This document shows positions 39,188 through 41,098 of a stretch of 44,305 nucleotides of DNA, piece by piece. Each line of letters starts with the position of its first letter. Positions within the stretch are counted from its first letter, which is position 1. The position numbers were made by a program, and so were the translations under genes. The notes beneath the pieces were generated by a model. The model saw only the letters and a program-made list of their open reading frames with translations, did not search any database and had not been told where the DNA came from. This DNA is from Ruminococcus sp. (GTDB taxonomy: Bacteria > Bacillota > Clostridia > Oscillospirales > Ruminococcaceae): contig JAFWTA010000005.1 of assembly GCA_017519145.1 (NCBI GenBank), forward strand, positions 1 through 44,305, written 5' to 3'.

Positions 39188-40453
39188 TCATTCGCCCTCT
39201 GCGCCCGAGACCTCGTCCACATAGAAGTCAGTGAGACTGTCGGGTGACTCAACGTAAAGCTGAAGATTTTCAGCTCCGTCGGGGATAACATATGCGGGAT
39301 TTTCGAGAGTTACCCATTCGCCGCTCTTTGCAGGCACAAGCGCCACCTCGTCGTACTTCTCGCCGTCGCAGTCATACTGCATAGTCAGCTTCATGGTAGC
39401 GTCCTTGCCGCTGTTCTGCATAGCCTTGCAGCTGAACTTGTAAGCCTGTCCGGGCTTGTAGGTATCACTGCTGAGCATGATCGCAGCACCGTTCCAGTTG
39501 TCTGTTCTTCCGCTGACGAACAGGGACTGTGAACCGTCGGAGGCATTCTCCTTGTCAACGCTTACCATTGAACCGCCTCTGGGTATCCAGCCTTCCTTGC
39601 CGTTCTCGAAGCTTATATCGAAGAAGCCCACAGCCTCGGGAGTTCCTGCATCTGCCTCTGCCTCAGAAAGCTGTGCGATAGCATCCTCATCAACGGTGAC
39701 TGTGATATCTGTCGCCTCAGTGTAGGTGCCGCCGGTCTTGAGCTCATTCTTGTACACCTTAGCCTTGCCCATGGACTGATAGCCCTCGATGGTAAGTGCC
39801 ACCTCGTACATATTGCCCAGCTCAAGTCCGCACTTAGCCCATGCGTCAAAGTGCTTGGAAACGGAAATAGTTCCCTCGATCTTGGTGCCGTCGCCATCGG
39901 GCTTTGACTGTCTTACGCTCCAGTACTGATCGAATGTCTGTGTGCCGTCGATAGAGGGCTGTTCGTATCTTGTGGTCTTGTATATATCATATGTGCCGCC
40001 GTCAACAGTGACTGTTCCCAGCGCCATGGGAGCTCCGGGCGGTCTCCAGCTGCCCCATGATTCCACGATGTAGAACTCTATGAGGGGATCCCTTGTCCAG
40101 CCGTACACGCACATATAGGAATTGCCGATGGGGTCGTAGTCAACGCCGTAATCCACGGTGATATTGCCCAGATCCTTGTAGGTCTGTGTGCAGTCATACT
40201 TCTTTCCGCGGCGGAAAAGAGCGTTGTTGATATTGCTCCATTCGCAGGAGAAGGTACCTCCGCCGGGCTCAACATTGAAGGTGGTGTCGCCCTCGTCTTT
40301 CCAGAGCTCATAGTCATAGCCGTCGGCAGAGCCCGTTACATTCTCGGTGAACACCTCTGTCTTGGCGTTATTTGAGCTGCATCCTGCCAGCGCACCGATC
40401 ATGCAAACAACTGCTGCGGCTGTGGAAAGTTTCTTTAAAATGCCATTCTTCAT
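39188..40453 (-). CDS. GH11 endo-beta-1,4-xylanase lipoprotein with C-terminal CBM22
   Basis: The 421-residue protein has a lipoprotein signal (lipobox LAGC, Cys25), a GH11 domain (about 40-240) and a CBM22-type module (about 281-421, [20 protein letters not shown] onward). GH11 motifs are [14 protein letters not shown] with nucleophile E131, [24 protein letters not shown] and [10 protein letters not shown] with acid/base E223. It cuts xylan chains internally and should be tethered to the cell surface by lipid instead of by a dockerin. A linker of Asp/Glu/Ala residues joins the two domains. It has its own promoter (40512-40539). The ribosome site lies inside a 12-bp palindrome at 40456-40467. 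Confidence 0.94.
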
Positions 40454-40455
40454 TC

Positions 40456-40539
40456 AGGTCATGACCTCGCTTTCGTTTTGTCGCCCGAAGCGTTTCGGGT
40501 CTTCAATACTGATTGTAACACATGATACGAATTTTTCAA
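40456..40539 (-). promoter_or_regulatory. Promoter and structured leader of the xylanase gene
   Basis: On the minus strand TTGAAA (40534-40539), 16 bases and TACAAT (40512-40517). The leader forms CCCGAA-GCGT-TTCGGG (near 40483-40498). Its ribosome site is part of the perfect palindrome AGGTCATGACCT (40456-40467), which could hide it. Confidence 0.6.
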
Positions 40540-40584: not shown

Positions 40585-40923
40585 TCATGCTCCTGCTGAG
40601 CGCCCCAATGTCATGCGGCAGGCAAAGTGGGGGATATGGCAGAAAAAGTCCTCCTCGCCGCCGATAAACCGCCTGTGATCCACCTTCACGGGACAGCTCT
40701 CTATGCCTGCGCTGAATGACATGAGCCATATGAACAGGGGCAGGTGTCCCATGCTGCCGTCCCTGTGGACAGCTATGACCTTTCCCGTCTTCCACCTGTC
40801 ACGGGGAAGCTCACCGAAATAAAGCCCCTCCTCGCTGCGGAAGAACTCCTCACATAGCTCCTCACTGTCAAAATACACCCATACCGTTTCCTCATTTTCC
40901 AGCAGTTCTCTGATGCTTCTCAT
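40585..40923 (-). CDS. Small protein of unknown function under SAM-riboswitch control
   Basis: The 112-residue product is soluble with no signal peptide. It begins MRSIRELLENEETVWVYFDS and has an acidic N-terminal half (SEELCEEFFRSEEG), a central RDRWKTGKVIAVHRDGSMGH, a hydrophobic LPLFIWLMSFSAGI and four cysteines. I recognise no family and see no methyltransferase, transporter or methionine-biosynthesis motif. The ATG at 40923 has AAGGAG nine bases upstream and is the first codon after the riboswitch terminator. As the only gene between the riboswitch and the xylanase promoter, it is the likely regulated target, so a link to methionine or SAM metabolism is inferred only from its leader. Confidence 0.75.
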   Translation of the reverse strand: MRSIRELLENEETVWVYFDSEELCEEFFRSEEGLYFGELPRDRWKTGKVIAVHRDGSMGHLPLFIWLMSFSAGIESCPVKVDHRRFIGGEEDFFCHIPHFACRMTLGRSAGA

Positions 40924-40961
40924 AAATATGCACTCCTTGAAAAAAATTCCACAAGAGTGCG

Positions 40962-41093
40962 AAAAAGCGGCTCCATCGTCACGACGGAGCCGCTCTGTAA
41001 GCCTTTTTACCCCATCGTTCAAGCTTTAGCACCTTGCATAACGCAGGTTGCTGTGCGGTCACAGGGCTTGTCCCTCACGCACTCTTTATGGTA
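40962..41093 (-). promoter_or_regulatory. SAM-I (S-box) riboswitch with terminator
   Basis: On the minus strand the aptamer (about 41093 to 41008) shows the conserved SAM-I elements in order: AAAGAG, GAGGGAC, GCCC, TGTGAC, GCAACC and AAGGTGCTAA. P2 is GTGCG / CGCAC, P3 is ACCTGC / GCAAGGT, and P1 can form from TACCAT (41088-41093) with ATGGGGTA (41008-41015). The loop CAAG can pair with CTUG-type CTTG after the GCTAAAG, which is the expected pseudoknot. A terminator follows: AGCGGCTCC / GGAGCCGCT (40966-40974 and 40986-40994) with five T residues. When SAM is bound, the family turns expression off. Confidence 0.87.
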
Positions 41094-41098
41094 TATAT

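Follow-up and report, generated by a model that had tools for sequence, protein, structure and literature searches.

A P4-less SAM-I riboswitch paired with a small protein of no named family in gut and rumen bacteria and their phages

In the window, by which we mean the whole 44,305-nucleotide stretch analysed here (Ruminococcus sp., contig JAFWTA010000005.1), a SAM-I riboswitch (S-box) without P4 stands ahead of a 112-residue protein of no named family. The protein family and the S-box are truly linked, and this pair of switch and protein turns up again in bacteria of the gut and rumen and in the phages that infect them. The gene is probably mobile and responds to low SAM, unlike a methionine gene of the usual kind. 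We lean towards reading it as a mobile, SAM-repressed accessory-gene cassette that would be ON when SAM falls, with the window copy as a settled chromosomal version.

All features of the locus lie on the reverse strand. RF00162 (SAM-I), at 41094-41009, is the sole cmscan match at Rfam's cut-offs in the whole window; with 59.4 bits (E 2.2e-11) against a cut-off of 44.4 bits, the riboswitch predicted ahead of the 112-residue ORF is real. The original prediction had credited it with all main aptamer elements. P1, P2, P3 and the pseudoknot are indeed present, but P4 is deleted in the cmscan alignment. P2 (41053..41082) has a GA/GA motif that looks by eye like a kink-turn, and its loop carries the 5' strand of the pseudoknot (41020..41070), in which CAAG at 41070-41067 pairs with CTTG at 41023-41020; P3 spans 41029..41051. 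Upstream, the predicted promoter was found as TTGATT-17-TATAAT with TG 5' of the -10 element, at 41127-41099: one such promoter-like site was found, where shuffles gave 0.5 expected.

Behind the aptamer (41009..41094) the 3' strand of P1, 41017-41009, can pair with 40990-40982 to form an antiterminator (40982..41017). The alternative is a terminator hairpin at 40994-40966, followed by a T run at 40965-40962; this hairpin was absent from the output of a simple terminator scan. Next come a ribosome-binding site, AAGGAG (40933..40938), and the ORF itself, whose start was set behind AAGGAG and which covers 40585..40923 with the stop included. The genome (3.17 Mb, 65 contigs) holds one further S-box, upstream of metK.

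The unrecognised protein had been described as the only gene behind the riboswitch. Unrecognised it is, but a gene for a GH11 xylanase with a carbohydrate-binding domain (39188-40453) follows on the same strand, 131 nt downstream, with a promoter-like site of its own at 40512-40539. At the window copy no terminator was found behind the 112-residue ORF, nor a terminator-like site between it and the xylanase gene, so that read-through from the S-box into the xylanase is possible. A search of two genomes of the same genus with the GH11 protein, made as an empty-site check, matched repeated GH11/CBM modules.

The leader is well conserved in an RNA alignment (A9) of 22 homologous leaders, which omits L015, L018, L066-L068 and the viral loci fetched later. 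All cells are paired in P2a (105/105), P2b (66/66) and the pseudoknot (88/88), and 95.5% are paired in P3. In P1 the figure is 79.2%, the weak cells being the outer three pairs. The pseudoknot has compensatory forms in two of the 22 leaders (L025: CAGA/TCTG; L013: TGTC/GGCA), and neither of them loses a pair. Further, when partners were slid by one to three columns, pairing dropped from 91.4% to 31-43%, and in the same comparison for the antiterminator from 96.3% to 31-42%. The hairpin of the predicted intrinsic terminator and the antiterminator alternative are both kept in the 22 leaders, with 87.5% and 93.9% of cells paired.

Terminator/antiterminator SAM-I switches are OFF with SAM, so the protein should be made at low SAM. 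Here it is predicted anatomy and conservation that identify such an expression platform. By computed energies the terminator hairpin (-24.8 kcal/mol) is more stable than the antiterminator helix alone (-11.6 kcal/mol), and a free fold of the leader retains the terminator hairpin while P1 is not formed; this suggests that the switch rests on folding order.

A search with the single protein sequence found a homologue in 4 of 396 genomes of the family, and a profile search in 12/394 genomes of the order, 6/391 of the class and 8/396 of the family, in samples that overlap and include the window's own genome. In genome contigs a scan matched two named records, including the contig of genome G305; the named carriers are Ruminococcus flavefaciens SAb67 (88% identical) and ND2009 (71%). 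Against plasmids, the proteins of L008 and L010 had no match.

The protein searches gave 24 distinct bacterial loci; of these, L027 matched the protein weakly (E 7e-4), and two (L015 and L018) have in-frame stops. Homologues also follow S-boxes, and do not mostly lack such leaders as the original prediction would have to fear: SAM-I lies upstream at Rfam's cut-off in 22/24 bacterial loci, and likewise in all 13 viral loci from the protein search. The remaining two bacterial loci are L006, with none, and L013, with a match of 30.1 bits, below the cut-off. The L013 aptamer nevertheless keeps its pseudoknot and P1 pairs by compensatory changes, which indicates that Rfam's model misses part of the P4-less variant. 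At L015 (G519:C8) and L018 (G689:C11) the S-box is kept beside a coding frame with in-frame stops, from which it appears that the cassette decays in some genomes.

The pair is also carried by phages. By tblastn the protein occurs in one annotated phage record, that of Ruminococcus phage NatCom_28274, where the S-box is in place. Scanning viral contigs with protein alignment A3 yielded 12 loci, all with SAM-I upstream; several viral loci are near-identical, so there are fewer independent events than loci. No relative was confirmed when viral sequences were scanned with the L008 protein or alignment A4.

When the P4-less S-box pattern itself was searched for, two scans found it in 36 distinct viral contigs, some of which could be bacterial, since IMG/VR contigs are predicted viruses. 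In 27 of them it precedes the window protein's family (18 distinct proteins). The other nine comprise six with small proteins (L073, L074, L079, L087, L137, L140), two with larger ORFs (L088, L092) and one pattern match at which no ORF was found (L082). All 14 pattern-scan viral loci given to cmscan scored above the cut-off, as did five more in the cmscan of the A3 loci. In the order, 14 of 394 genomes have the pattern and the reversed control gave 0; nine of these 14 have it before the window protein's family and five before other small proteins.

The other proteins fall partly into groups. Family B (L073, L094, L097 and L140, grouped by eye) has about 138-150 residues where complete and occurs in viral contigs and bacterial genomes, while family C consists of L087 and L106, alike by eye. 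Further small proteins of no recognised kind behind P4-less S-boxes are L074, L079, L099, L103, L137 and L144. A Pfam search of eight of these other proteins gave nothing of weight beyond a weak MORN-like match of L103 (1e-4, below the family cut-off); L094, L097, L140, L088, L092 and L144 lay outside this set, and L073 was entered as 130 of its 138 residues. In L092 the P4-less S-box precedes a 732-residue ORF, and within this viral contig there is also a stretch of 112 residues that resembles MetK at 66% identity. Viral contigs with a P4-less S-box also contain Rfam matches to DUF2800 RNA (L140, 5466-5621, 87.7 bits) and gut-2 RNA (L139, 5503-5550, 53.9 bits). Record MT835503, entered as a phage but marked unverified, holds a P4-less S-box ahead of a different small protein; with neighbouring ORFs that by eye are TrpB-like and aldo-keto-reductase-like, it was not counted as a phage.

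The genomic setting of the cassette varies. In one phage group it is convergent with a gene for a C5 DNA methylase, and close to it are genes for an N6/N4 methylase that carries ParB_N and for a protein containing a MetK N-terminal domain, as well as terminase and portal. Among 63 loci searched, which are viral, prophage and bacterial stretches, several of them overlapping, a C5 methylase was found in 26, an N6/N4 methylase in 22 and a MetK-like protein in 13. The methyltransferase neighbours belong mainly to the one phage group; settings elsewhere differ, for instance tail-like ORFs (by eye) in L069. Two viral loci with the cassette, L081 and L141, encode a longer relative of MetK that shares 39% identity with the host MetK across about 370 residues. 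As for the marks of a phage accessory gene (moron), the phage settings vary and the leader terminator is conserved; the promoter scan covers the window copy, behind whose ORF no terminator was found.

In a weakly resolved tree of 39 rows, with 5 of the 35 inner branches well supported, viral and bacterial rows are intermixed. Further, the protein of L010 (L010/L033, a bacterial genome with phage genes around the locus) and the protein of viral contig L080 are identical. On this evidence the mobility of the family is well supported. That claim does not extend to a phage origin of the window copy. Its neighbours are not those of a phage (a sigma-70-like gene, an unknown protein and the GH11 xylanase, in identical order in G305), and in this weakly resolved tree the window clade of three (99/86) is separate from the viral rows and lies beside L068, which has a long branch; for these reasons no phage origin is claimed for it.

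The favoured explanation is a self-contained unit, which would consist of promoter, P4-less SAM-I aptamer, terminator/antiterminator and one small soluble protein. SAM is the likely ligand, and low SAM would turn the gene on. With enough SAM, P1 would form and the transcript would stop at the terminator. At falling SAM levels the P1 3' strand would pair with the 5' arm of the terminator instead, and the protein would be made. Passages of PMC2258182 describe terminator/antiterminator SAM-I switches as OFF with SAM, for a case in C. acetobutylicum and as a general mechanism. The cassette would spread as phage or other mobile cargo, as a 'moron', and the copy of the R. flavefaciens group would be its settled chromosomal version. 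A mobile accessory cassette for low SAM agrees better than a core methionine gene does with the patchy occurrence, the presence in phages and the variety of proteins that follow one S-box type.

What the protein does is a guess: it might be a binding or inhibitory factor that aids phage or host in SAM shortage, for example when failing methylation brings a danger of restriction. The suggestion of a role in methylation and restriction conflicts comes from the phage neighbours of the one group. More tentatively, the unit may be a portable P4-less promoter-plus-switch that phages and bacteria set before changing small effectors, which would be released at SAM collapse and would settle such conflicts. 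The collapse could come from heavy DNA methylation, SAM-destroying invaders or starvation.

The original prediction went in another direction and proposed a candidate new component in the metabolism, uptake or sensing of methionine or SAM. Such a component, for instance one that regulates MetK or methionine uptake and would be made at low SAM, gains from the S-box control at 22/24 bacterial loci, the part of that proposal that stands. The other S-boxes of the carrier genomes also speak for it: 19/20 precede metK, as judged by eye from the MetK start motif, and the 20th lies at a contig end. Further, passages of PMC3766115 state that various genes behind SAM riboswitches in some groups are probably cysteine or methionine genes. 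However, the step from S-box to metabolism is the weaker one. Carriage is patchy (the 12/394 genomes of the order) and phages share it, further small proteins follow the same P4-less S-box type, and the protein has no significant domain that would name an enzyme or transporter. Among the bacterial-locus neighbours listed we see by eye no methionine operon or other methionine genes, and no common neighbour. On balance we consider a metabolic role rather unlikely.

A different idea is a SAM-depletion alarm, in which the destruction or draining of SAM by an invader would release a growth-stopping or abortive-infection effector. A low-SAM switch before small, varied proteins, carried by phages and scattered bacteria, would suit such an alarm, and varied effectors would be in keeping with the different proteins found behind one S-box type. 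However, ordinary methionine starvation would trigger the effector too, and PADLOC gave no match of weight (best E 0.032 with 25 members of alignment A8), which makes the alarm a doubtful candidate. In general the family has no named relatives in Pfam, NCBIfam, PHROGs, PADLOC or PDB chains. Besides the PADLOC match, several hits were considered and not accepted: in PHROGs a best E of 0.0038 (one of the 25 A8 members, a match of unknown function), too weak; Pfam SH3_15 (E 0.0087, three members) and PRTase_3 (E 0.0092, one member), weak and scattered; RraB (E 0.064, one of the 25); and in PDB a best E of 0.12 (the 25).

The protein alignments omit L015 and L018, with their in-frame stops, and the weak L027. 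No clear membrane segment is seen in the protein. AlphaFold2, run with 22 sequences, gave a model with pLDDT 83 and pTM 0.78 and the elements H4-8, E13-17, H21-30, E49-53, E57-61, H63-69, E79-82, H83-88 and H99-107. The middle order E-H-E-E-H-E corresponds to that of a ferredoxin-like fold, a comparison at the level of element order. F27 is invariant in 39 members, L7, E32, G33, D82 and G89 are present in at least 92% of lettered rows, and R2 in 33/38 such rows; no conserved residue looks catalytic. A DNA mimic is not supported by charge, as the net charge runs from -8 to +10 over 39 members.

The missing P4 sets the aptamer apart from most S-boxes of the same genomes. It is missing in 22/22 aligned leaders, and the spacing from GGTG to GAT is 17-18 nt in all of these versus 28-33 nt in 18/20 other S-boxes, a comparison set drawn from 26 carrier genomes (the spacings of L012, L110 and L117, 18, 29 and 17, were set by eye). 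P4 is retained in 18/19 metK S-boxes of the carrier genomes. Two S-boxes of the ordinary sequence type have the 17-nt spacing and no P4: L117 (G519:C45:13703-13786, before metK) and L122 (G992:C14:3-86, at a contig end). P4 loss is thus a mark of the cassette but not unique to it. For want of P4 we class the aptamer as a P4-less variant rather than a standard SAM-I member. A structure that departs from most SAM-I in 22/22 leaders could mean that a related compound such as SAH, and no longer SAM, is sensed. We find this improbable, as the core scores above Rfam's SAM-I cut-off, the metK S-box L117 lacks P4 too, and so does SAM-IV, as passages of PMC6890682 state.

Finally, the window gene is hardly a functionless remnant in decay. 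Its protein is divergent and the copies L015 and L018 have in-frame stops, but Ka/Ks is 0.16-0.22 among three copies and the leader is whole in all three. In the R. flavefaciens group the gene is settled in the chromosome and evolves under purifying selection.

If the cassette reading is true, SAM riboswitches also act as phage sensors for accessory genes, beyond the housekeeping control of methionine genes. One small RNA and one small protein would then make a module for studying how phages and gut and rumen bacteria respond to SAM exhaustion. Further, natural P4-less SAM-I aptamers are material for studying the purpose of P4.

The closest known system is the transcription-terminating SAM-I riboswitch (S-box, RF00162) of Firmicutes. 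The cassette shares with it P1-P3, the pseudoknot between loop and J3-4, the terminator/antiterminator and a score above Rfam's cut-off. However, it has no P4, and the gene under its predicted control is not a methionine gene but encodes an unnamed small protein that phages also have. According to passages of PMC6890682, SAM-IV has no P4 and a core like that of SAM-I, and in these two points the cassette resembles it. In contrast to SAM-IV, the cassette keeps a P2 that is kink-turn-like by eye, and SAM-I is Rfam's best match in the clan; the P5 and second pseudoknot of SAM-IV are not apparent in the alignment of the 22 leaders, where the terminator comes after P1.

Among the matches listed from the open-access literature, as far as their available text goes, there is no report of phage-borne SAM riboswitches or of P4-less S-boxes, and passages of PMC9004378 call riboswitches a rare feature in phages. 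The same passages describe a glutamine riboswitch before ssrA in the marine phage Melnitz, likewise a metabolite riboswitch in a phage genome; the cassette differs from it in ligand, gene and phages. The C. difficile prophages phiCD630-1 and phiCD630-2 have c-di-GMP riboswitches that, in passages of PMC7699646, are likewise tied to an accessory module of a prophage. There the ligand is another one, and the riboswitch precedes an antisense antitoxin RNA, whereas the cassette described here precedes a protein gene.
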